Source: Caldifarciminota bacterium (GTDB lineage: Bacteria > Hydrothermota > UBA3073 > JACQXS01 > JAGMCI01). Taken from it: 64,000 nt of DNA. Below are positions 43,648 to 54,751 of the stretch, piece after piece; within the stretch, counting starts at the first letter, position 1; every line of letters starts with the position of its first letter. A program made the translations under genes and the position numbers. The stretch covers positions 62,001 through 126,000 of the forward strand of contig JAGMCI010000011.1 of NCBI GenBank assembly GCA_023129325.1, read 5' to 3'. Under the pieces are notes generated by a model. That model did not search any database. It was not told the DNA's origin and worked only from the letters and a program-made list of their open reading frames with translations.

Positions 43648-44049
43648 ATGACTGAAATAAGTATTGTTATAGGAAGTAAATCAGACGAACCTTGGCTTAA
43701 GGAATGTACCAAAGTACTCGCTGAGGCAAAACTCTCTTACGAAGTTGCAATAACATCTTGCCACCGAGAGCCTGAAAAGACGAGAAATTATGCTAAATCA
43801 CTCAAAAAGAGAGGAATAAAAGTTGTTATTGCAATGTGTGGGTATTCGTGTGCACTTCCTGGGTTTATAGCTTCGCACACTGATTTACCCGTTATAGGAG
43901 TCCCGCTTCCAACTTCACCACTAAAAGGCATTGATTCGTTACTTTCAATAGTTGAGCTTCCATCTGGAGTTCCAGTTGCTACAATGGGAATAGGTAAAGC
44001 TGGAGCTAAGAATGCTGCCCTCTTTGCATGCAAGATACTTAAAAAATGA
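43648..44049 (+). CDS. purE: PurE, 5-(carboxyamino)imidazole ribonucleotide mutase type
   Basis: Purine-pathway enzyme of 133 residues acting at the AIR/CAIR step. IVIGSKSDEPWLKEC (the PurE GSxSD start), ITSCHREPEKTRNYAK (SxHR), GIKVVIAMCGYSCALPGFIA and GVPLPTSPLKGIDSLLSI are present. The AGMSAALPG segment is replaced by CGYSCALPG, which is closer to class II enzymes that use CO2 directly. No purK is visible, which fits that. The -10 box ends six bases before this ATG, so the message is leaderless and longer upstream starts are ruled out. It overlaps murA by four bases. Confidence 0.92.
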   Translation: MTEISIVIGSKSDEPWLKECTKVLAEAKLSYEVAITSCHREPEKTRNYAKSLKKRGIKVVIAMCGYSCALPGFIASHTDLPVIGVPLPTSPLKGIDSLLSIVELPSGVPVATMGIGKAGAKNAALFACKILKK

Positions 44050-45290
44050 AGAAGTTTGTCATTGAGGGAGGGCGTCCACTTAAAGGTGAAGTTACTCTTT
44101 CGGGCTCTAAAAATGCTTCTCTTCCTATTTTAGCCGCCACTTTACTTGCCCCTGGCGAACATATAATACATAATGTGCCAATGCTTGGTGATGTTAAAAC
44201 AATGATAAAAATTTTAAAAGCTACAGGAGCAATTACGAAATTTGAAAACCATACACTTGTTATAAATACAAAATCAATAACTAATTCCAAAGTTCCTTAT
44301 GAGCTTGTTTCTACTATGAGAGCTTCTTTTCTCATTGCTGGAGCTTTGATTGGTAGACTTGGCGAAGCTTATGTATCAAGACCTGGCGGCTGTGCAATAG
44401 GGTCAAGACCAATTGATGGACATTTAAAGGGCTTTGAGGCTCTGGGTGTAAAAATTGAAGAAAAACATGGATATATCAATGCAACTACCAAGGACCTCAA
44501 AGGAGCTGAAATATGGCTTAATGAACGCTCGGTTACTGGAACTGAAAATATTTTGCTCGCTTCAGTATTTGCAAAGGGAGAAACACGTGTCACAAACTAT
44601 GCTAAGGAACCACATGTTATTGACCTTATAAAATTCTTAAATTCTATGGGCGCAAAAATTAAGGCTCAAGACGATAGCATTATAATTGAAGGCGTTAAAA
44701 AACTTCAACCTAAAGAATATACTATATCCCCGGATTATAATGAAGCTGGGACATTTATGATTGGAAGCGCAATTACAGGCGGAGATATTTTCTTGAGAGA
44801 TGTAAGATGGGAAGACTCAATCTCAGAGATTGCAAAACTTCGTGAAATAGGAGTAGAGGTCAAAAAAGATAAGCTCGGTATAAGAGTGAAAAGAAAAAAA
44901 ATAATAAAACCCTGCACTGTAAAAACCGCCCCTTGTCCTGGCTTCCCAACTGACCTTCAGCCACAAATAACAGCCTTACTTACTCTCGCAGATGGCACTT
45001 CAATAGTGACAGAAACAATGTTTGAACAAAGATTTAATCATATTCCAGAGCTCCGAAGAATGGGCGCTCAAATAGAACTTGAAGAAAGGAGCGCCATAAT
45101 TAAAGGGGTTTCTGAACTATCAGGCGCAAAAGTTATGGCTTCAGACATTCGTGCAGGAGCAGCTCTTGTCCTTGCAGGACTTTCTGCAAAAGGAGTAACA
45201 GAAATATCAAGAATCTACCATATAGATAGAGGCTACGAAAACCTTGAAACTAAATTAAGCACCTTAGGTGCCAAAATAAAAAGAGTATGA
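44046..45290 (+). CDS. murA: MurA, UDP-GlcNAc 1-carboxyvinyltransferase
   Basis: First committed step of peptidoglycan synthesis: enolpyruvyl transfer from PEP to UDP-GlcNAc. LKGEVTLSGSKNASLPILAA begins the chain; VSRPGGCAIGSRPIDGHLKG carries the active-site Cys (fosfomycin target), and CPGFPTDLQPQ and MFEQRFNHIPEL follow. At 414 residues it is full length. It overlaps purE upstream and the lipoprotein gene downstream by four bases each. Confidence 0.96.
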   Translation: MKKFVIEGGRPLKGEVTLSGSKNASLPILAATLLAPGEHIIHNVPMLGDVKTMIKILKATGAITKFENHTLVINTKSITNSKVPYELVSTMRASFLIAGALIGRLGEAYVSRPGGCAIGSRPIDGHLKGFEALGVKIEEKHGYINATTKDLKGAEIWLNERSVTGTENILLASVFAKGETRVTNYAKEPHVIDLIKFLNSMGAKIKAQDDSIIIEGVKKLQPKEYTISPDYNEAGTFMIGSAITGGDIFLRDVRWEDSISEIAKLREIGVEVKKDKLGIRVKRKKIIKPCTVKTAPCPGFPTDLQPQITALLTLADGTSIVTETMFEQRFNHIPELRRMGAQIELEERSAIIKGVSELSGAKVMASDIRAGAALVLAGLSAKGVTEISRIYHIDRGYENLETKLSTLGAKIKRV

Positions 45291-45760
45291 GAATTACAAT
45301 TTTAATTTGGACAATTATAATATTTTTGTTAGTGGGTTGCAATAAACTAAATCATCAATATAAAGTTACTATTCCTGTTAATAAAGAAATTGTAGCAGAT
45401 GGGGTTGGAGACCATAATGGTATCGCTTCAGAAGATGAGTTAAAATTCATTGAAGAATATTTTAATTCTGACCCCGAAGCTTGGTGCATGGGTTACTTTC
45501 CACTCTCCTATGCAGGCAAAACTCAAATTCCAGCGGATACAGTTCTGTGGGCATTTAAGCAAAATAGCCTTGCAGGACCTTACAAAAGTGAAACGGAGTT
45601 AAGGGAAGCATTCAAAGGAGTTAATATAAGAACTCCGTGTGTGGGAGTATATGTGCTTATATTAGATGAAGAATGCGAAATTACGCATCTTTTTCGAGCT
45701 CCAGGGCCTCAGTTTAGCAAGAGCGAATGGATTCAAATGAAAGTCGTGCTTGGTGGATGA
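45287..45760 (+). CDS. Lipoprotein of unknown function
   Basis: A 157-residue predicted lipoprotein: hydrophobic signal with LLVGC (Cys 18), then an acidic mixed alpha-beta domain with EAWCMGYFPLSYAGK, IRTPCVGVYVLIL and ECEITHLFRAPG. Three further cysteines could pair in the periplasm. I do not recognise the family. It is translationally coupled to murA (ATGA) and is followed by the first of the attC-like sites. Confidence 0.7.
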   Translation: MRITILIWTIIIFLLVGCNKLNHQYKVTIPVNKEIVADGVGDHNGIASEDELKFIEEYFNSDPEAWCMGYFPLSYAGKTQIPADTVLWAFKQNSLAGPYKSETELREAFKGVNIRTPCVGVYVLILDEECEITHLFRAPGPQFSKSEWIQMKVVLGG

Positions 45761-45768
45761 TAAATACT

Positions 45769-45817
45769 GCATCTAACAGCATATTCGCGGACTTCACAAA
45801 CACACAGGATGTTATGC
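45769..45817. other. attC-like site 1
   Basis: ATCTAACAGCATATTCGCGG at the 5' side (RYYYAAC core) and GATGTTATGC at the 3' side; GCAT-AACA pairs with TGTTATGC. It shares CTAACAGCAT with sites at 46867 and 49859. Confidence 0.35.
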
Positions 45818-45850
45818 ATCATTGCTTCACAGAGAAATTGTGGGGATTAA

Positions 45851-46849
45851 ATGAAAATTAAGGGAATATGTTATGATACTGGAACAGGGTTCACTCCCAC
45901 CTATTTTTCAAGGGATAAATTAACAACGAAAACAATGCAAAAAGAAATTAAGATTATTAAAAACGAATTGAATTGCAACGCGGTTCGTATCTATGGGGAT
46001 AGGATTAACAGATTGATGTCGTGTTCAAAAATTGCAATTGATAATAATCTGGAAGTTTGGATTTCTCCAAGATTTGTTGATAGAACAGAGGAAGAAACAT
46101 TAAAATTAACAGGAGAATGTGCTAAAGAAGCTGAGGGACTGAGAAAATTAAATTCAGAATTAGTTTTTGTTGTTGGAAACGAACTGACTTTGGATATGAC
46201 AGGATTATTATTTGGAGAAACAGCCCAAAAGAGGGTGCAATATTTATGGCACTGCAAGGATGGCTCTTTTGCTCTATTAAAAGAACGGCTTAGAAATTCA
46301 AATGAGTTATTAAATCAATTTTTAGAAAAGCTTGTTACTTATACCAAAAATTCTTTTAAGGGAGAGATAACCTATGGTGCAGGTGAGTGGGAGCAAATTA
46401 ATTGGGACTTTTTCGATATTATTAGCCTAAATAGATATTTACCAAAATCAGAGAAAGAAAAATTAGTTAGAGAATTCAGGAAATTAAAAGAATCCGGCAA
46501 ACCAATAGCAATAACTGAATTTGGTTCTGAATCCTATGCGGGTGTGTTTGATAAAGGGCCCGGGAGATGTGATCCTGTTGATTGGAAAAACTTTGAAATT
46601 AAAGACGGTTTTAAAAGAAGTGAAAAGGAACAAGCAGATTATATGAAGTACGATTTAGAATTATTTGAGAAGGAGGGAATATTAGCAACATTTGTGTATA
46701 CTTTTACAGAACCACTTTATACATATTCAAAAAACCCTAAAAAAGATTTAGATATAGGCAGTTGTAATGTTGTGAGGGTATATGCTGATGGGCATATAGA
46801 GCCTAAAAAATCTTTTCAGGTTATTTCCAATTTTTATAAAAACCACTAA
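45851..46849 (+). CDS. Glycoside-hydrolase-like TIM-barrel protein
   Basis: A 332-residue protein that resembles clan GH-A folds: KGICYDTGTGF start, NCNAVRIYGD, LEVWISPRF, then VFVVGNELTL (candidate acid/base Glu in a GNE context) and AITEFGSESY (candidate nucleophile). Similar proteins occur in Actinobacteria, some labelled abortive-infection proteins without proof. It has no signal peptide, so it is cytoplasmic. It lies between two attC-like sites, in the manner of a cassette gene. GGGGA precedes the ATG. Confidence 0.7.
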   Translation: MKIKGICYDTGTGFTPTYFSRDKLTTKTMQKEIKIIKNELNCNAVRIYGDRINRLMSCSKIAIDNNLEVWISPRFVDRTEEETLKLTGECAKEAEGLRKLNSELVFVVGNELTLDMTGLLFGETAQKRVQYLWHCKDGSFALLKERLRNSNELLNQFLEKLVTYTKNSFKGEITYGAGEWEQINWDFFDIISLNRYLPKSEKEKLVREFRKLKESGKPIAITEFGSESYAGVFDKGPGRCDPVDWKNFEIKDGFKRSEKEQADYMKYDLELFEKEGILATFVYTFTEPLYTYSKNPKKDLDIGSCNVVRVYADGHIEPKKSFQVISNFYKNH

Positions 46850-46866
46850 ATATATGAAGTAATGGT

Positions 46867-46910
46867 ATCTAACAGCATGTTTGCAGTTCTTTGTAAGGAT
46901 AATGTGAAAT
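46867..46910. other. attC-like site 2
   Basis: ATCTAACAGCATGTTTGCAG follows the TIM-barrel gene, with a GATAATGTG stretch 3'. The 5' half matches site 1 closely; the 3' half is weak. Confidence 0.3.
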
Positions 46911-46930
46911 GAAATTTGCATTTTAAAAAT

Positions 46931-46953
46931 CCACCTGCCTCACCAGTCAAGGC
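46931..46953. repeat. Intergenic palindrome (family C)
   Basis: CCACCTGCCT-CACCAGTCA-AGGCAGGTGTGG. Confidence 0.55.
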
Positions 46954-46970
46954 AGGTGTGGTTATTATTT

Positions 46971-47008
46971 GAGTAATTCGTGAATTTCGTGGTTGTTTTT
47001 TCTTGGCT
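46971..47008. repeat. Promoter-bearing repeat (family J), GNAT gene copy
   Basis: TTCGTGAATTTCGTGGTTG then TTTTTTCTTGGCT. A TATAAT follows at 47020, but only 11 bases away, so the promoter is uncertain. Confidence 0.45.
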
Positions 47009-47044
47009 TTTTAAGTTCCTATAATATTGTATTGGTCAGAGAAA

Positions 47045-47503
47045 ATGAAAGTATTTAATAAGAATTTGTCAAATATAGTAATAAGGAATTTCTGTATAGA
47101 AGATTATGATACACTTATAACACTATGGGATAATGCACAGCTTCCATATAAACCAAAAGGCCGAGATAGACGAGATAAGATTAAACAGGAGCTCAATTGG
47201 GGAAATGCTATTTTTTTGGTCGCTGAGGCAAATGGCAAATTAGTAGGCTCTATTTTAGGCACGCATGATGGTCGAAAAGGCTGGATAAATAGACTTGCAG
47301 TAGCTCCTGAATTTCAGAAACAAGGCATTGCGAGAAAGCTCGTGGCTGAAGTAGAAGCTCGTCTTTCTGAACTTGGAATTGAAATAGTAGCTTGTTTGAT
47401 TGAAGACTGGAATACGAAATCTATGCAAGCTTTTGAAAGATTAGGATATAAGCAGTCCCCGGAAGTAATGTATTTTTCTAAAAGAAAAAATTCAGATGTA
47501 TAA
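47045..47503 (+). CDS. GNAT-family N-acetyltransferase
   Basis: A 152-residue GNAT acetyltransferase. The acetyl-CoA loop is VAPEFQKQGIARKLV (Q/R-x-x-G-x-A/G, about residues 86-100), preceded by GSILGTHDGRKGWINRLAV and followed by CLIEDWNTKSMQAFERLGY. Acceptor unknown; RimI-like and antibiotic-acetylating enzymes share this outline. I use the ATG at 47045; the frame opens upstream only with TTG. It is a typical cassette-type gene by size and setting. Confidence 0.87.
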   Translation: MKVFNKNLSNIVIRNFCIEDYDTLITLWDNAQLPYKPKGRDRRDKIKQELNWGNAIFLVAEANGKLVGSILGTHDGRKGWINRLAVAPEFQKQGIARKLVAEVEARLSELGIEIVACLIEDWNTKSMQAFERLGYKQSPEVMYFSKRKNSDV

Positions 47504-47514
47504 TACAGCACAGC

Positions 47515-47545
47515 AGATAACATGGTGTGTACGATTCATGGAGTT
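47515..47545. other. attC-like site 3 (5' half)
   Basis: AGATAACATGGTGTGTACGA then TTCATGG. It aligns with the 5' half of the site at 52699 (TTTAACAAAGCATTTACGAC). Confidence 0.25.
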
Positions 47546-47585
47546 TATCCAGTCGGAATTTGTTTACTCATAAAGGGGAGATACT

Positions 47586-48251
47586 ATGGTGAAATTGAAC
47601 TTATCTTTACCCTCTGAGATTGAAGACAAACGTGCTTATTATCATAATCTCATTGGCTCTTCTTTAAACTATGTTATATCTTGGTTTAAAAATATAGGGT
47701 TCGCAGTTACCCTTGATGAGATAATTACTAATGCTGCAGTTTTTAATGACAACGATTTTCTTAGGAATAAGATGGCCGAGGTTTTCGGTATTCCTCTGAA
47801 TCAAATTATTAAGACCTTTTGTGGAACCGTGCATAATAAGACACTTTATATACTTTCTATTAAAAAGTACGAAGCAATTTACAAAACCCTTTATCCAGAC
47901 TATCAATGGAATACAGATTGCTATAAGAAACTTATCATTCATGAACTCGCTCACAAAGCGCATGCTTTGACGGCAATACATTTGAAAGGAACAGAGGATG
48001 GAATGGGACCAAGATGGTTTTTTGAGGGATTGGCAATGCTTTGTGCCAATCAATTTATCTCGGTTTCTAATAGAAAAATGACAATCAATGAGATAGAGAG
48101 ATATGCTCGGGAAGACCAAAATGAACTATTATCTTATCCAATTTATGCGTCAATGGTTAGGTCTCTGGCTATTTCTATTCCTCTCAATGACTTAATCAAA
48201 ACGGCTGATTCGCCTAACTTTTTAGATTTTATAAAAGAGCACTATCTATAA
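47586..48251 (+). CDS. Putative zinc metallopeptidase (HELAH)
   Basis: A 221-residue protein with LIIHELAHKAHAL (HExxH, about residues 117-129) and a later GPRWFFEGLAMLC, where the Glu may be the third zinc ligand as in gluzincins. No signal peptide, so it would act in the cytoplasm. It overlaps the next gene, another HExxH protein, by one base. Substrate and family are not recognised. Confidence 0.65.
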   Translation: MVKLNLSLPSEIEDKRAYYHNLIGSSLNYVISWFKNIGFAVTLDEIITNAAVFNDNDFLRNKMAEVFGIPLNQIIKTFCGTVHNKTLYILSIKKYEAIYKTLYPDYQWNTDCYKKLIIHELAHKAHALTAIHLKGTEDGMGPRWFFEGLAMLCANQFISVSNRKMTINEIERYAREDQNELLSYPIYASMVRSLAISIPLNDLIKTADSPNFLDFIKEHYL

Positions 48252-49189
48252 TGAAAATACAAATTTCGGACAATAGTGCCTGTGGACAAATAAATTATGA
48301 TTTTTCGGCAGTTGAATTGGTTATAGACTACTTTCTAAAACGTAACAATAACAAAATAAACGAAATTGTAAATCATCCAGCTTATAAGCTTGTATTTGAG
48401 CATAGCAAGCGTTTTTCTTCAACCGCACTTAATAAGGATATGTTGGTATTATCGTTAAAGGGAAAGTCTACTGCTTTTGGTTTTTCAAATATAAATGAGC
48501 GGTTATCTATACTAAAAGAGATGGTCAATTATCTCAAAAACAACGAACAAAAGATAAAAGAAGAGTTTATACCACTTGCTTTGTTTTATCTCCCAAGGGA
48601 TTATAAACCAGAGGTAACAGTGTATTTTATCATTGGCGGTTATAATGGGATAGCATTAAATGATGAAGTAGCTATTAATATTGATTGGGAACAATTTCGT
48701 AGTGCTCCACAAGAAATATTCTTATATCTTCCACATGAGTTATTTCATATTGGTTTTGCCCATTATCAACAAGTGCCTGATATTTCAATAGTAAAGACCA
48801 AAGAAGATTTAAGGAAATTGGTTATGAGTTTTACAATGAATGAAGGGTTAGCTACCTTAGTGACCTATCAAAAACGGATTGACTTAAATGCACTATCAGA
48901 CTATGATTATTCTATCCTAATTAATAGTCTTTTGCTCACAAAAAAAGTGAAGCAATTCATGAGTCTAATACAAATATTAGGTAGAAATATTAGTGATTTT
49001 GTAACTAACAAATTGTTGGCAGAAGTCCTTGGACAGTGTTCAGGTGATAGGCTGTTTTATGTTGTTGGGTGTTATATGGGATTGAAGATAGAGCAGAACT
49101 ATGGTAGGGAAAAACTCATTGAACTAATAAAACATTCTCCTGAAAAGTTCTTTGAAGTTTTTAAAAATGTAGATAGGCAAAATATTTAA
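48251..49189 (+). CDS. Putative zinc metallopeptidase (HELFH)
   Basis: A 312-residue protein with YLPHELFHIGF (HExxH, about residues 171-181) and MNEGLATLVTYQKR (third ligand Glu), the pattern of several uncharacterised zinc-peptidase families. It lacks a signal peptide. The ATG overlaps the preceding stop, so the two HExxH proteins are produced together and may form a complex or an enzyme/regulator pair. Family assignment is open. Confidence 0.65.
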   Translation: MKIQISDNSACGQINYDFSAVELVIDYFLKRNNNKINEIVNHPAYKLVFEHSKRFSSTALNKDMLVLSLKGKSTAFGFSNINERLSILKEMVNYLKNNEQKIKEEFIPLALFYLPRDYKPEVTVYFIIGGYNGIALNDEVAINIDWEQFRSAPQEIFLYLPHELFHIGFAHYQQVPDISIVKTKEDLRKLVMSFTMNEGLATLVTYQKRIDLNALSDYDYSILINSLLLTKKVKQFMSLIQILGRNISDFVTNKLLAEVLGQCSGDRLFYVVGCYMGLKIEQNYGREKLIELIKHSPEKFFEVFKNVDRQNI

Positions 49190-49204
49190 AAAGGGATTGA
49201 TTGT

Positions 49205-49849
49205 GTGAAGACAACAATTGTAACACTTGCTACTTTACATCAATTTCATCTGAAATCTAAGTTTTATTCCCTTAGTCATTTAAGGACAATCATTGAAAAA
49301 GCAAATCCAGATGTAATTTGTGTTGAGTTAACAGCGGCGGACTTAAGATGCAAAGAGGACTGGACAGCAAAGAGCGAATATTCTAAATGTATTATACCGC
49401 TTAGTGAGAAAAAGGGCTATAATCTTGTTCCTATGGAGCCTAACGAACCGAAATATTCAAGGATAGTAAATATGCATGAGCAAATGCTTAAAAAGACTGA
49501 ATCCGAAGAACCAAAGAAAATAGAAATCTTCAACCAATATACCGAAATACTTTATGACTATTTGTTTACTTATTGGGGTTCTCCTACTGATGTAAATTCA
49601 TCTTTAACAAATACTCTCTTTGAGTTGAAACACGCATTTCAAAACTCTCTTTTTGGTCCGATAGAAAAACAGTGTTGGGAGGAATGGAATACTCATTTTC
49701 TGAATACGATACTTGAGACTGCTGAAGAGTATGAAGGTAAAAGAATACTGGTAACAGTTGGCGTAGAGCATGTATATTGGTTAAAGAAACACTTAAAAAA
49801 TAATTCAAGAGTTAGATTGGTAGAAGTCAATGAAGTGTTTAACGAATGA
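49205..49849 (+). CDS. TraB/TIKI/ChaN-superfamily-like protein
   Basis: A 214-residue protein. TLATLHQFHLKSKFYSLSHL at the start, ANPDVICVELTAADL, and the end VTVGVEHVYWLKKHL match the arrangement of TraB/TIKI-like proteins (GxxH at both ends and an acidic strand), some of which are metal-dependent proteases. It begins with GTG at 49205. Third gene of a coupled trio with two HExxH proteins, and followed by the clearest attC-like site. The call is tentative. Confidence 0.55.
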   Translation: MKTTIVTLATLHQFHLKSKFYSLSHLRTIIEKANPDVICVELTAADLRCKEDWTAKSEYSKCIIPLSEKKGYNLVPMEPNEPKYSRIVNMHEQMLKKTESEEPKKIEIFNQYTEILYDYLFTYWGSPTDVNSSLTNTLFELKHAFQNSLFGPIEKQCWEEWNTHFLNTILETAEEYEGKRILVTVGVEHVYWLKKHLKNNSRVRLVEVNEVFNE

Positions 49850-49858
49850 TAGCACTTC

Positions 49859-49945
49859 GCCTAACAGCAAGTTTACGGGTTGCCCTGATAAAATTAGAGG
49901 TATCTGCAACAAGGTGGCACTTCACAAATACAGAAAAGGTTAGGC
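49859..49945. other. attC-like site 4 (best match)
   Basis: GCCTAAC (49859-49865) and GTTAGGC (49939-49945) are exact inverse complements 73 bases apart, matching the RYYYAAC and GTTRRRY cores of integron attC sites. Inner arms AGTTTACGGGTTGCC and GGCACTTCACAAATAC pair imperfectly, as attC arms do. Confidence 0.5.
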
Positions 49946-49978
49946 AAAATGATATAATAAATTAAAGGGAGGTTTAAT

Positions 49979-50224
49979 ATGGGACAAAGGAAAAGTAAAT
50001 TTGCTCCTCTGTTGCTTGGTATAATCGTTGGTGTGATAATATTGGTATTAAGCATTACTCCCATTTCACCAAATGCCAGGTCTGTGGTTCAGTATATACT
50101 TATTGGAATCTTTTTTTCATTTGGCATAATCGGATGGAGGGCAGAAAATAAAAGAAGTATAATTATTGCTAATATAATCCTTTGGTGTGCAATAATTGCT
50201 GCAATTGTTATTACATTGATTTGA
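49979..50224 (+). CDS. Small membrane protein, unknown function
   Basis: An 81-residue protein with three hydrophobic segments (LLLGIIVGVIILVLSI, YILIGIFFSFGIIGW, IANIILWCAIIAAIVI). AAGGGAGG precedes the ATG. No family recognised. Placed between two attC-like sites. Confidence 0.65.
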   Translation: MGQRKSKFAPLLLGIIVGVIILVLSITPISPNARSVVQYILIGIFFSFGIIGWRAENKRSIIIANIILWCAIIAAIVITLI

Positions 50225-50237
50225 AAGTTAGAAACGG

Positions 50238-50330
50238 TATTTAACAAGATTCAAGTGAGATAAAGAATAGTATTTTAAAAATCTGCTTCACCTAATAGCG
50301 TGTTCCCAAGCTTCACAATAAAATGGTGTG
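50238..50330. other. attC-like sequences 5a and 5b
   Basis: TATTTAACAAGATTCAAG (50238) and ACCTAATAGCGTGTTCCCAA (50290), then a TTCACA...TGTGAA hairpin (50310-50332). The second matches the 5' half shared with sites 1, 2 and 4. Confidence 0.3.
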
Positions 50331-50334
50331 AAAT

Positions 50335-50361
50335 TCCCCAGCACATAATTATGTGCGGGAC
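50335..50361. repeat. Intergenic palindrome (family E)
   Basis: TCCCCAGCACATAA and TTATGTGCGGGA form an inverted repeat. The same core recurs, perfect, at 59251-59276. Confidence 0.6.
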
Positions 50362-50408
50362 GGGTCTGTGAACTCTGTGGTCTGTGTGGTTTCATCTTTT
50401 TCTTGACT
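50361..50408. repeat. Promoter-bearing repeat (family J), ispG copy
   Basis: CTGTGAACTCTGTGGTCTGT, then GTGGTTTCATC, then TTTTTCTTGACT, whose last six bases are the -35 box of ispG. Confidence 0.6.
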
Positions 50409-50433
50409 TTTCCAATCCCTGTGATAGTATAAT
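50403..50433 (+). promoter_or_regulatory. Promoter of ispG (leaderless)
   Basis: TTGACT (50403-50408), 19 bases, TATAAT (50428-50433), six bases, ATG at 50440. Confidence 0.65.
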
Positions 50434-50439
50434 TAGAAA

Positions 50440-51498
50440 ATGATTAAAAGAAAACTTACTAAACAAGTTAAGGTCGGAAATGTAAAAATTGGTGGTGGAG
50501 CAATAGTTTCAGTCCAGTCAATGACTAAATCTAAAAATTTATTAGAAATCATTAAAGAAATTAAAGAACTTGAATCTCTTGGATGTGAGCTTATAAGAGT
50601 GGCAATCCCTGATTTTGAATCTGTAAAAAAGATTAAAAAAATTAAAAAGGAAACTCATATACCTCTTATTGCAGATATACACTTCAATTATAAGTTAGCA
50701 ATTGAGTCAATAAAACAAGGTGCGGACAAAGTAAGAATGAATCCTGGTAATATAGGAAGTAAAGAAAAGGTGCGAGAAGTTGTAAAATATGCTAAGGATT
50801 ATAATATTCCTATAAGAATTGGTGTAAACTCTGGTTCTCTTGAAAAGGATATACTCTCAAAATATGGGAGTTCAACCTCAGATGCTCTTTTTGAAAGCAT
50901 CAAAAAATGGGTCAAGATTATTGAAGATTTCGGCTTTGACTCTCTTGTTTTATCAGCCAAATCATCTGATACTAATACTACTATAGAGACTTACCGTAAA
51001 ATTTCAAGAGAGCTTAATTACCCACTTCATATTGGTGTCACAGCCACAGGCTCAGGAATTCAGGGAATGGTTCGCTCATCAATTGGGATTGGAACTTTGC
51101 TTTCTGAAGGAATCGGTGATACACTCAGAGTGTCTCTTACAGGGTCATCAAGAGATGAAGTAAAATTGGGTCACGAAATTTTAAAATCGTTGGGTTTTAA
51201 GAAAAAAGAGCCCCAAATCATAGCCTGTCCAACTTGTGGAAGATGTGAGATTAATGTTGAAAAACTTGCTAACGAAGTAGAAAAAGGATTGAATTCTGTA
51301 GGGGCGTATTGCAATACGCCCCTACGGATTGCTGTAATGGGTTGCATAGTAAATGGTCCCGGTGAAGCAAGGGATGCGGATTTTGGCGTAACAGGAGGTA
51401 AAGGGAAAGGAATTATATTTAGAAAAGGCAAAATAATAAAAAAGGTTGCAGAAAATAAAATAGTTGCTACATTATTAGAGGAAATTAAAAATACCTAA
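50440..51498 (+). CDS. ispG: IspG, 4-hydroxy-3-methylbut-2-enyl diphosphate synthase
   Basis: Fe-S enzyme of the MEP isoprenoid path that reduces MEcPP to HMBPP. VGNVKIGGGAIVSVQSMTKS, IPLIADIHFNYKLAI, VRMNPGNIGS and LHIGVTATGSG form the TIM barrel. CPTCGRCEIN and MGCIVNGPGEA hold the three cluster cysteines and the catalytic Glu. It is the short bacterial form. A family A repeat (51298-51325) encodes GAYCNTPL between the two cysteine blocks, only 8 residues from the second, in a region that is otherwise well conserved. Confidence 0.95.
   Translation: MIKRKLTKQVKVGNVKIGGGAIVSVQSMTKSKNLLEIIKEIKELESLGCELIRVAIPDFESVKKIKKIKKETHIPLIADIHFNYKLAIESIKQGADKVRMNPGNIGSKEKVREVVKYAKDYNIPIRIGVNSGSLEKDILSKYGSSTSDALFESIKKWVKIIEDFGFDSLVLSAKSSDTNTTIETYRKISRELNYPLHIGVTATGSGIQGMVRSSIGIGTLLSEGIGDTLRVSLTGSSRDEVKLGHEILKSLGFKKKEPQIIACPTCGRCEINVEKLANEVEKGLNSVGAYCNTPLRIAVMGCIVNGPGEARDADFGVTGGKGKGIIFRKGKIIKKVAENKIVATLLEEIKNT
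51298..51325. repeat. Family A palindrome in ispG (GAYCNTPL)
   Basis: GTAGGGGCGTATTG and CAATACGCCCCTAC are perfect inverse complements (28 bases, no loop). Confidence 0.85.
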
Positions 51499-51548
51499 AA
51501 AGAATTTAGGTGTTTAGGAATTTAGGCATTTACTATAGTGGAGGTGAT

Positions 51549-51893
51549 ATGCAAAGAATAATGTGTAAATCCAAGGTCTATGGACTTTGGGTAACTGGTA
51601 AGTCTATTGAATATGGAGGCTCAATTGAGATGCCGCCTGAAGTTCTTGAAGCTTCAGATATTTTGCCAGGCGAGATTGTGCTTGTTGTTAATATAAATAC
51701 AGGGGCAAGATTTAATACTTATGTGATAAAAGGCAAGCCAGGCGAATGCCGATTACTCGGAGGAGCAGCAAGGCTTGGAGATATAGGAGATAAATTACTT
51801 GTCATATCTTATGGCTTAATGGATACCAAAGATGCTCAGTTTCACAAGCCGAAATTTGTCTTTGTAGACGAGAAAAACAGAATAAAAAAATGA
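51549..51893 (+). CDS. panD: PanD-like aspartate 1-decarboxylase
   Basis: PanD makes beta-alanine for pantothenate. It is a proenzyme that cleaves itself before Ser25 to form a pyruvoyl group. The line-up is good: MQRIMCKSKVYGLWVTG, IEYGGSIEMPPEVLEASDIL with the Gly-Ser cleavage site, VVNINTGARFNTYVIKG, then LGGAARLGDIGD. I start it at 51549, where GGAGGTG precedes the ATG; the frame is open 39 bases further up. At 114 residues it is slightly short. It follows ispG with CCTAAA-type repeats in the gap. Confidence 0.87.
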   Translation: MQRIMCKSKVYGLWVTGKSIEYGGSIEMPPEVLEASDILPGEIVLVVNINTGARFNTYVIKGKPGECRLLGGAARLGDIGDKLLVISYGLMDTKDAQFHKPKFVFVDEKNRIKK

Positions 51894-52017
51894 GCCACAG
51901 ATTGCACAGATTTAAAGTCAAACACGAACAAATTTCATCTGCATAAATCTGTGTCTAAATAAATTCGCAGATACGGAACTAAATGCAAATATGACTTATT
52001 TTTGTTAGAGAAATAAA

Positions 52018-52704
52018 ATGAATATTGATAAGGATGACAAATTCGATTTAATTTACAATATAGTAACAACAGCTGCTGCAAACATATTAGATCCGATAGA
52101 AAAGGCTGCAAAAAAGATTTTCAAAAATGAAAATAAACCAGAAGTATGGGATCTTGGTTTTCTGGAAATAGTAGTATTTTTGCTTTTTGAAGTAGATTTT
52201 GCCATGAATCTTTTCAAACAAGATAGAAAAATCAGAGAAAGTTTGATAATTTATTTAATAGATAACTTTATTAAGCAAACAGACATGAAAGAATTTAAGC
52301 TTTTCCTTAAAAAGCTTTTTAATCAAAGATGCCTTGAGTATAGCGAGATAGTTAATAGCAAAGAATACAGAAAGACACAAAAAATAGAACTTATTATTGA
52401 ACCTCTTTTCAATAATGTACTTCTTGCCATTAATAATGGAGAAATTAATTTAAAAAAAGAGGGAATAAGACCTCTATCACTTGATTTTTGGGGGTTAACA
52501 TTAGCGAGAGAATCATATTTCGATTCAGGTTTTAGGCATCATTTTGGGCTAAAAATATATTTAAAACATATTTTACAAAATAACACAAATTTTACATTGA
52601 TTAGTCAAGATGAAATTGACGATAAGATAATAGATGCAAATAAAGAAATAGAAAGTTTATTGAAAAAACGAAGGATAAAAGAAAACAAGTCATCCATCGT
52701 TTAA
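52018..52704 (+). CDS. Hypothetical protein with attC-like 3' flank
   Basis: A 228-residue soluble, mostly helical protein of charged composition (IEKAAKKIFKNENKPEVWDL, FLKKLFNQRCLEYSEI). No family recognised. Its stop codon lies inside a GTTTAAC core of the attC-like site at 52699. Upstream, GTTAGAG lies ten bases before the ATG, a possible 3' core of a preceding site. Confidence 0.6.
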   Translation: MNIDKDDKFDLIYNIVTTAAANILDPIEKAAKKIFKNENKPEVWDLGFLEIVVFLLFEVDFAMNLFKQDRKIRESLIIYLIDNFIKQTDMKEFKLFLKKLFNQRCLEYSEIVNSKEYRKTQKIELIIEPLFNNVLLAINNGEINLKKEGIRPLSLDFWGLTLARESYFDSGFRHHFGLKIYLKHILQNNTNFTLISQDEIDDKIIDANKEIESLLKKRRIKENKSSIV

Positions 52705-52777
52705 CAAAGCATTTACGACTTCATTTCGTTTCGCTCAATTATTGTGTGGTTTTGTAAATGCTTAAATGTTGTATGAT
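52699..52777. other. attC-like site 6
   Basis: GTTTAAC then AAAGCATTTACGAC, paired with GTAAATGCTTAAATG at the other end: eight perfect base pairs (GCATTTAC/GTAAATGC) plus a TTTAA/TTAAA pair and unpaired CAAA on one side only, like the extrahelical bases of attC. Confidence 0.4.
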
Positions 52778-53007: not shown

Positions 53008-53199
53008 ATGAAAGTTAAGAAAGGGAATAAGAAATATTACGAAATACTTAAAAATATGAGTGGCGAAAAAAGGATGAAGATAGGGTTTGAGATGTATGAC
53101 TTTGCTCTGAAAATCGTGGAGTCATCTATCAGAAACCAAGAGCCTGGGATTTCTGAAAATGAACTTAAACAAAAGATAAAAGAAAGACTTCCAAAATGA
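53008..53199 (+). CDS. Small partner of the nucleotidyltransferase gene
   Basis: A 63-residue basic helical protein (KGNKKYYEILKNMSGEKRMK, then ENELKQKIKERL). Its stop overlaps the start of the next gene (ATGA), so it is a coupled pair. Small proteins of this kind occur just before DUF6036/AbiEii-like nucleotidyltransferases. Whether the pair is a toxin-antitoxin unit is not known. Confidence 0.6.
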   Translation: MKVKKGNKKYYEILKNMSGEKRMKIGFEMYDFALKIVESSIRNQEPGISENELKQKIKERLPK

Positions 53200-53747
53200 A
53201 CTTTGGGCAAGTCGTATTAGATGTAATTGAAAAGCTAAACCAATCCAATATTTCCTATATGCTCACAGGTGCTTTGGCAGTAAATTATTATGGTGAACCT
53301 CGCACAACCCATGACATAGACTTAGTATTAGAAATCACTGAAAATGATGCTTCCACACTTGTTGAATTTTTTGAGAAAGATTTCTTTATTGATAATGAAT
53401 CAATCCAAATTGCTCTGCACGAAAGAAGTATGTTCAATATTATTCATAAAGAAATTGGTCTTAAAGTGGACTTTTGGATATTGGGAAACGATGAATTTAC
53501 TTGTAAAGAATTTGGACAGCGTGTTAAAGTCAAGGCTATTGGAACTGAAATGTGGCTACCAAAAGCAGAGGATGTAATTATTAGAAAGTTAGACTGGTAT
53601 AAAAACTCTGATATTGATAAGCATTATCTGGATGCCCTCGGGATATATAGAATTCAGAAAGAAAATCTTGATATAAAATATATTACCAATTGGGTTACTA
53701 AAAAGTCAACTCTCAAAATCTGGCAAAAAATACAAGAGGCATTATGA
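53196..53747 (+). CDS. Nucleotidyltransferase-fold protein (AbiEii/DUF6036-like)
   Basis: A 183-residue protein with a minimal nucleotidyltransferase core: YMLTGALAVNYYGEPRTTHD, then HDIDLVLEI with the metal-binding DxD, and a third acidic strand KVDFWIL. It resembles AbiEii-type toxins and DUF6036 enzymes that modify tRNA or proteins. The small gene upstream could be its antidote, by analogy only. It overlaps glmU by four bases. Confidence 0.75.
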   Translation: MNFGQVVLDVIEKLNQSNISYMLTGALAVNYYGEPRTTHDIDLVLEITENDASTLVEFFEKDFFIDNESIQIALHERSMFNIIHKEIGLKVDFWILGNDEFTCKEFGQRVKVKAIGTEMWLPKAEDVIIRKLDWYKNSDIDKHYLDALGIYRIQKENLDIKYITNWVTKKSTLKIWQKIQEAL

Positions 53748-54751
53748 AGTCTTTTTCGGTTGTTATCTTGGCGGCTGGGGTTGGGAAGAGGATGAAGTCA
53801 AAAACTCCAAAGGTTATGCATAATATGTGCGGTAGACCTATGCTATTTTATGTAGTTGATACTGCTAAGCGTTTGAAGCCAGAAAAAATTGTCCTCGTGG
53901 TTGGAAAGAAAATAGATAAGAAATATTTTATAGGAGCATATTGCAATACGCCCCTACAATTTGTTGTTCAAGACCCACCGTTAGGAACAGGAGATGCTGT
54001 CCTTAAAACTGAATCTATGTTTAAAGATGTAGAGGCATATCGCCTGTCTCGCCGAGCCAAGGCGGGCAATACGCCCCTACTTATTCTTTGTGGTGATGTG
54101 CCATTACTTAAATCATCAACTTTGAGAGAACTTATTAAATTCCATTATAAAATTAAAGCATCAGCTACTGTGCTTACTGCAATTGTGCCAGACCCAAGTC
54201 TTTATGGCAGAATTATAAGAAGAGGGAATAAGCTAATTAAAATTGTAGAAGACCAAGATGCTTCTCCAGAAGAAAAGGAAATCTCTGAAATAAATTCAGG
54301 TATTTATGTTTTTGAAAAAACACCTTTATTTGAGGCGCTCCAAGAAATTAAGCCAGTAAATGCTCAAAAAGAATATTATCTTACAGATACTATAGAAATA
54401 CTGCGTAAAAAGGGATTGCCTGTAAGTGCCTATAAGACTCCTGATTATCATGAAGTGCTGGGCATAAATACGAGAAGGACACTAACTGAGGTAGAAAATA
54501 TTCTTCAAGATAGAATAATTGAAAACTTTCAGTTAGAAGGAGTAACTGTTGAAGAACCCGAAACAACACACATAGACTTTGATGTCCAAATAGGGAAAGA
54601 CACTTTAATTCACCCACGTGCCCATATTCTTGGAAATACCAAAATAGGCAAGAACTGTGAAATTGGTGCGGGAACAAGGATTAGGAATTCAAAGATATCC
54701 CCGGGAACAATAATTGGGGAGGATTCATCTATTGAAAATGCACAACTCTAA
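53744..54751 (+). CDS. glmU: GlmU-type UDP-GlcNAc pyrophosphorylase, shortened
   Basis: N-terminal uridyltransferase domain: VVILAAGVGKRMKSKTPKVM (UTP loop), DPPLGTGDAVL, LILCGDVPLL and EINSGIYVFE. The C-terminal left-handed helix acetyltransferase domain of GlmU is cut to about four turns (IGKDTLIHPRAHILGNTKIG to the end, total 335 residues against about 455), so acetylation must be done elsewhere. Family A elements at 53931-53957 and 54029-54080 encode FIGAYCNTPLQF and EAYRLSRRAKAGNTPL in surface positions flanking conserved strands. The 3' end overlaps the next gene by 14 bases. Confidence 0.88.
   Translation: MKSFSVVILAAGVGKRMKSKTPKVMHNMCGRPMLFYVVDTAKRLKPEKIVLVVGKKIDKKYFIGAYCNTPLQFVVQDPPLGTGDAVLKTESMFKDVEAYRLSRRAKAGNTPLLILCGDVPLLKSSTLRELIKFHYKIKASATVLTAIVPDPSLYGRIIRRGNKLIKIVEDQDASPEEKEISEINSGIYVFEKTPLFEALQEIKPVNAQKEYYLTDTIEILRKKGLPVSAYKTPDYHEVLGINTRRTLTEVENILQDRIIENFQLEGVTVEEPETTHIDFDVQIGKDTLIHPRAHILGNTKIGKNCEIGAGTRIRNSKISPGTIIGEDSSIENAQL
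53931..53957. repeat. Family A palindrome in glmU, copy 1 (GAYCNTPL)
   Basis: TAGGAGCATATTG and CAATACGCCCCTAC, slightly diverged from the perfect ispG copy. Confidence 0.8.
54029..54080. repeat. Nested repeat in glmU: family C inside family A
   Basis: GTAGAGGCATAT and AATACGCCCCTAC are the two ends of a family A element. Between them lies GCCTGTCTCGCCGAGCC with AAGGCGGGC, a family C element. Confidence 0.75.

Follow-up and report, generated by a model that had tools for sequence, protein, structure and literature searches.

With little doubt, a 64,000-nucleotide stretch of a Caldifarciminota bacterium genome (G000:C3:62001-126000; hereafter, the window) contains decayed attC-type cassettes, and these are probably the remains of a type of integron that occurs across the phylum with a XerA/IntI-like tyrosine recombinase lacking the I2 helix. 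The standard view holds that integrases became able to capture cassettes by acquiring I2, which is a hallmark of integron integrases (PMC7790495, citing Messier and Roy 2001). The initial annotation had read the region as a cluster of attC sites lacking an integrase nearby (CALIN), and at least two attC sites without a neighboring integron integrase are present as this term demands. The part of that reading concerning attC-type sites without an integrase stands, but the window does not hold one intact array: decayed cassettes lie around housekeeping genes. The system would function as an integron does, and the window is CALIN-like debris: compared with a standard CALIN, its array is older, in a worse state and less typical.

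All five motifs named in the initial annotation are present where it had placed them, and are among the best 5' halves of the window when both strands of the 64 kb (128,000 positions) are scored with half-site weight matrices trained on 51 sites outside the window. The 5'-half scores (position of the AAC) are 28.3 (49863), 23.7 (45775), 19.0 (52703), 18.3 (47519), 16.0 (46871) and 14.3 (50294), compared with 12.4 for the next-best window position and an average shuffle maximum of 12.8. These six top-scoring halves, all on the + strand within 45.7-52.7 kb, comprise the five reported sites and one that had been overlooked after the stop codon of the GNAT gene (AAC 47519). With the 3'-half matrix, two clear matches are found, at 49939 (28.6) and 45811 (24.1), where the shuffle maximum averages 10.3; they are the exact partners of the sites at 49854 and 45766, respectively. 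The motif YYTAACARMRNRTTYRCRG has seven matches with at most two mismatches in the window, against 1.08 expected, and none of 100 shuffles reached seven; with one mismatch, six forward matches are found in the whole genome, against one and one for the reversed control. A covariance model termed R1, built from seven aligned full sites that were found in other phylum genomes by a gapped pattern and including no window sites, matches the window at 45766, 49854 and 52694, the neighbors being about 4.1 and 2.8 kb apart.

The RYYYAAC R'' box and the GTTRRRY R' box are both found in the 45766 site (R' GTTATGC) and the 49854 site. In the latter, the GCCTAAC/GTTAGGC pair with 73 bases between, pointed out previously, is real and exact. 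The R' box of the 52694 site is a near-match only (GTTGTAT), and the three other window sites retain R'' alone. The imperfect palindrome with paired L''/L' arms is kept in 52694-52777 and decayed in the other sites; the stem described there as having unpaired bases on one side proves to be an L stem of 10-11 bp with spacers of 1 nt versus 4 nt. Judged by their sequences, the window sites are attC-type and decayed, only 52694-52777 being nearly intact; as stems have been lost and three sites are halves, they are relics.

The accessory genes between these sites interrupt the murA-ispG-panD-glmU cluster, which is compact in relatives. Where a relative carries murA and ispG on the same contig, they are separated by 11 to about 500 bp, compared with 5.15 kb in the window, in which the housekeeping genes ispG and panD lie inside the interval of the sites. 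panD adjoins glmU in several relatives, and other relatives carry different genes between them. Gene order, the conservation of which in relatives had been proposed as an argument against cassettes, is therefore not conserved. Every gene from murA (44046-45290) to glmU (from 53744) is directed rightward, consistent with the single direction claimed. The genes between the sites are accessory, as had been proposed, and at least one is a cassette in another genome. This is DUF5700, the clearest single proof of cassette nature: a homologue in another family of the phylum (G047:C306), with 78.6% DNA identity over 877 bp and 70% protein identity, is a single-gene cassette flanked by two attC sites. 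As a scale, the ispG protein shares 46% identity with that of G016, the only genome at phylum distance used in this comparison. One site is common to p221, DUF5700 and DUF5694, and the three genes resemble one operon.

The source genome (2.0 Mb, 57 contigs, 89% complete) has about nine further attC-type sites, on other contigs or elsewhere on C3. All nine that were checked lie 3' of an open reading frame on the same strand, eight of them at -33 to +10 nt; the ninth, on C42, is the weakest and lies at a distance of 67 nt. A single attI-like motif is found, at C42:34880, with a boundary match of 4/5 (see below) and a weak attC match 2.9 kb further on, without a recombinase.

The site family is widespread. 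R1 finds sites at an E value of 1 or better in 57 of 147 phylum genomes, with well over 100 sites below 1e-3, and the sites of one contig are mostly co-oriented. An alignment of 64 sites has 280 cells with compensation on both sides, where shuffles have 113, and compensated variation is seen in every one of the ten pairs of the L stem; the L''/L' arms therefore have a conserved structure with variable sequence. As this alignment was fitted to the model, a sequence-free rule was also applied (YAAC, a stem of at least 9 pairs after 0-4 nt, 3-6 nt, GTTR). On class 1, class 2 and Vibrio-type integron plasmids, used as positive controls, R1 has no match below E 1, indicating that it is specific to this site type. 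The attC sites of Polaribacter phage P12002L include one that is recombined by IntI1 (PMC9892861); this phage has only weak R1 matches and provides no bridge.

The recombinases at the arrays differ from IntI. None of the 147 genomes has a TIGR02249 (IntI) match over the curated cutoff of 265 bits; one relative's recombinase reaches 217.8 bits, and the best partial matches are recombinases in which the match is split in two by an absent middle part. A search for an IntI-type integrase with the additional domain, which had been suggested as a check, thus finds none in the source genome and none over the cutoff in the phylum, but would miss the integrase beside such sites in relatives, which is not an IntI with that domain. 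Recombinases without I2 are present at attC arrays in G009:C120, G045:C25, G104:C9, G145:C14 (broken by a stop), G014:C9, G023:C70 (fragment) and G066:C89 (fragment). Further genes of this kind lie at contig ends, the contig breaking off 136-724 bases behind the gene, as expected because of repeats. From ArgI to HxxR, these proteins have 92 residues (101 in G014 and G011) versus 132-134 in eight IntI, a shortfall of ~41 residues (31-33 in G014 and G011), and the alignment gap coincides with the place of I2 in 2A3V, the Vibrio cholerae IntI-attC complex. The predicted model of a member from IMG/VR (mean predicted local distance difference test score 78) has 2A3V as its closest fold, with no helix at the place of I2. 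In a tree, the IntI group is one clade (100/100) separate from the I2-less group, although the dividing branch is weak (69/89). An I2-less recombinase scores 244 bits against NF040815, 'site-specific tyrosine recombinase/integron integrase' (cutoff 220), and the best sequence-profile match of the IMG/VR group is an archaeal XerC/XerA-like structure. By the two defining tests, the cutoff and the additional domain, the array-adjacent recombinase is not IntI.

A HARP-like N-terminal domain (GHRWHPEEKYWSFP) was considered as a replacement for I2 and rejected: the Pfam match is sub-threshold (E 0.0016, 18.4 of 25 bits, 3/6 members), the PDB gives no match, and the domain is missing in G002 and most IMG/VR members, so it is kept only as an idea. 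Recombinases associated with IS91 (G110, G047 and Thiothrix) form a separate group with no arrays. At L050, L148 and L275, attI-like motifs lie closely behind fragments of I2-less recombinases, and inactivated integrases therefore seem common in the phylum.

Behind each I2-less recombinase gene lies an element of two palindromic arms, most of which end in AACRAGTTRNGCGAAA or close to it. With one mismatch allowed, this attI-like pattern occurs in 56 genomes, part of which is chance by control counts. In relatives with the I2-less recombinase, integrase gene, attI and cassette array are found side by side, an arrangement absent from the source genome. Two or three attI-like motifs are present on single contigs of G047 (C62) and G112 (C67), so that a genome may have more than one integron platform, or cassettes that carry attI.

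If a circular cassette enters at G|TT, its start must be the complement of its own R''. This boundary is found in relatives. For the first cassette behind attI, all five variable positions match in 7/7 loci that combine a confident site with a recombinase gene or a fragment of one, including one with the rare GTTGTGCGA, where the random rate of exact matches is about 0.10. Between neighboring sites, the mean match is 4.06/5 in the phylum (2.77 random, p 5e-5) and 3.55 on IMG/VR contigs (2.52 random, p below 5e-5). The window offers one readable, decayed example, from 49854 to 50285, in which 6/7 bases agree. The I2-less recombinase is the likely partner of these sites.

The following course of events would explain these features. 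Accessory genes with an attC-type hairpin site at the end of each would have been inserted into and beside a conserved cell-wall/cofactor gene cluster; the sites would later have lost halves and stems, and the integrase would have gone from the genome. In the phylum type of integron, attI would directly follow the gene of the XerA/IntI-like recombinase, which as an active enzyme would recombine attC at G|TT, possibly using folded single strands, to release circular cassettes, and would insert the circles at attI, so that the cassette start equals the complement of its own R''. On balance, we favor the idea that this is a separate and widespread integron lineage, with an integrase that never had I2 and with attC sites that differ in geometry, having a long L stem and a short R-L spacer, and that the lineage is scored as CALIN because detection requires the additional domain.

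An ordinary CALIN, the cassettes of which were captured in the distant past by a standard I2-containing IntI that has since disappeared, or were delivered by other bacteria, while the I2-less recombinases are unrelated neighbors, is the most serious alternative and is unlikely. Genomes that lack IntI commonly have CALINs (PMC9024848), the source genome is itself without an integron integrase, and the R''/R' boxes resemble canonical attC. However, no IntI passes the cutoff throughout the phylum set, the I2-less recombinases adjoin attI and a first cassette with an exact boundary match in all seven confident loci, and the site geometry is unlike that of canonical attC. The arrangement beyond the phylum also argues against an ordinary CALIN. 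Searching IMG/VR with the recombinase alignment gives 80 loci; in the 52 examined with the sequence-free rule, 278 sites lie upstream of the recombinase on the opposite strand, against 2.6 expected, and the other three placements have 5, 9 and 5 sites. This is the classical divergent layout.

Many of the IMG/VR contigs (L165-L244) have such divergent arrays, with up to 13 attC-like sites, beside an I2-less recombinase; filed as viral, they may represent integrons of phages, or else arrays of bacteria that were filed wrongly. A Chryseobacterium plasmid (sp. SNU WT5) carries a recombinase with attC-like sites downstream, and no sites are found by the sequence-free rule with the relatives from Arenibacter and Cellulophaga phage.

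That the repeats are terminators, intergenic hairpins or another dispersed repeat lying 3' of genes by accident is very improbable. The window sites do follow genes and are decayed, and other intergenic repeats are present in the source genome; however, the L-stem covariation, the fixed R''/R' boxes, the single orientation per contig and the attI beside the recombinase are unlike such elements, and a terminator family predicts none of the cassette boundary matches. R1 has no match in 276 kb of control loci, where the sequence-free rule gives 6 matches versus 3.0 expected. Chance similarity in AT-rich sequence, with the accessory genes forming an ordinary operon, would agree with the three half sites and with the operon-like p221-DUF5700-DUF5694 unit, but it is negligible given that these sites are the top six of all scored positions, all on + in 7 kb, that the insert is absent in relatives, and that DUF5700 is a cassette gene elsewhere.

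Several points weigh against the link between the window and the I2-less integron type. No integron integrase was found in the source genome, which is 89% complete and has only XerC-like and phage-type recombinases, and an IntI may have been supplied from another cell. The folding z values of the window sites (-0.73, -0.01 and -0.71) are no better than those of shuffles, compared with -4.65 and -4.44 in intact relatives, and the sites at 46862, 47510 and 50285 are 5' halves only. As the search pattern from which R1 was trained began from the window motif, the training set retains some dependence on the window. The attI-first match is 3/5 in G116 and G112, two loci that have attI-like motifs but whose sites are less certain. 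Canonical IntI-type attC sites are detected neither by R1 nor by the sequence-free rule, so the canonical and phylum site types differ in geometry, and the case for equating the phylum sites with canonical attC depends on core boxes, geometry and the boundary test.

Among known systems, the window is like a CALIN in having at least two close attC-type sites, accessory genes in one direction and no integrase in the genome, but most of its sites are broken, housekeeping genes are interspersed with them, additional lone sites occur at various other places in the genome, and the complete systems of relatives employ an I2-less recombinase. The phylum systems share with archaeal-type integrons (PMC9668308) an attI directly downstream of the integrase gene, co-oriented cassettes and the G|TT boundary; unlike these, their integrase is without I2/additional domain, attI consists of two palindromic arms ending AACRAGTT, and attC has a long L stem beginning 0-1 nt after the R'' box. 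The recombinase resembles archaeal XerA and NF040815 proteins, exceeding the model cutoff and, in the IMG/VR group, giving an archaeal XerC/XerA-like profile, but it is linked to attI and attC arrays and has 2A3V as its best fold match. Phage-borne CALINs (PMC9892861) likewise have attC sites in viral genomes without a canonical IntI, whereas the IMG/VR contigs described here have an I2-less recombinase beside the array.

I2 is held to be necessary for cassette capture and to occur in no other protein (PMC7790495), and the additional domain is treated as defining for integron integrases (PMC9668308); it is absent from the account in PMC9892861. Among the papers searched, which were open-licence PubMed Central articles and included no preprints and few subscription journals, none was found to describe an I2-less integrase together with attC arrays. 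If real, a natural I2-less lineage would open the origin of integrons to direct test and would supply the absent partner of many arrays at present classed as CALIN; surveys demanding the additional domain would then undercount integrons. If folded attC strands are recombined, I2 would not be essential for cassette capture; if double-stranded sites are recombined, the pre-I2 state of the integron would be seen. The window shows the fate of such cassettes, in which captured genes persist among housekeeping genes while sites decay. Its features are listed in Table 1.

Table 1. Sites and genes of the cassette region, in window coordinates.
Feature	Position	Strand	State or context	Support
murA	44046..45290	+	left edge of conserved cluster	
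Lipoprotein-like gene	45287..45760	+	upstream of site 1; cassette or ancestral	
attC-type site 1	45766..45818	+	both halves, central part short, stem decayed	R1 17.9 bits, E 0.07
GH113-like gene	45851..46849	+	presumed cassette gene	
attC-type site 2, 5' half	46862..46886	+	3' of GH113-like gene	consensus match, 5'-half matrix
GNAT acetyltransferase gene	47048..47503	+	presumed cassette gene	
attC-type 5' half	47510..47534	+	3' of GNAT gene; AAC at 47519	5'-half matrix 18.3
p221	47586..48251	+	gene with HELAH motif	
DUF5700 peptidase-like gene	48251..49189	+	close G047 relative is a single-gene cassette between two attC sites	
DUF5694-like gene	49205..49849	+		
attC-type site	49854..49948	+	perfect R''/R' boxes, L stem decayed	R1 25.9 bits, E 6e-4
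Small membrane protein gene	49979..50224	+	presumed cassette gene	
attC-type 5' half	50285..50309	+	3' of small membrane protein gene	5'-half matrix 14.3
ispG and panD	50440..51893	+	conserved, between accessory blocks	
228-aa protein gene	52018..52704	+	presumed single-gene cassette	
Best-preserved attC-type site	52694..52777	+	R'' box holds stop codon of 228-aa gene	R1 36.2 bits, E 1.4e-6

In the panD-glmU interval of four loci from relatives (L074, L077, L078 and L079), accessory genes differ, with for example TolB-like, rubrerythrin-like and methyltransferase-like reading frames; this interval is an insertion hot spot in relatives, and no attC sites were detected there. In the murA-ispG gap of G001 (L074, 8899-9394), a different lipoprotein gene occupies the same place, flanked by the 13-nt inverted repeats GTGCAAAGTTGAC and GTCAACTTTGCAC. 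Between the last site of the window and glmU (53008-53747), a small gene overlaps a nucleotidyltransferase-like gene (weak PF10706 match), and the pair is possibly toxin-antitoxin-like. The palindromic element GTAGGGGCGTATTGCAATACGCCCCTA lies within the ispG frame (51293-51335), with an 81% alike copy within the glmU frame (53925-53967); in each of these two housekeeping genes, the repeat is an in-frame insertion.

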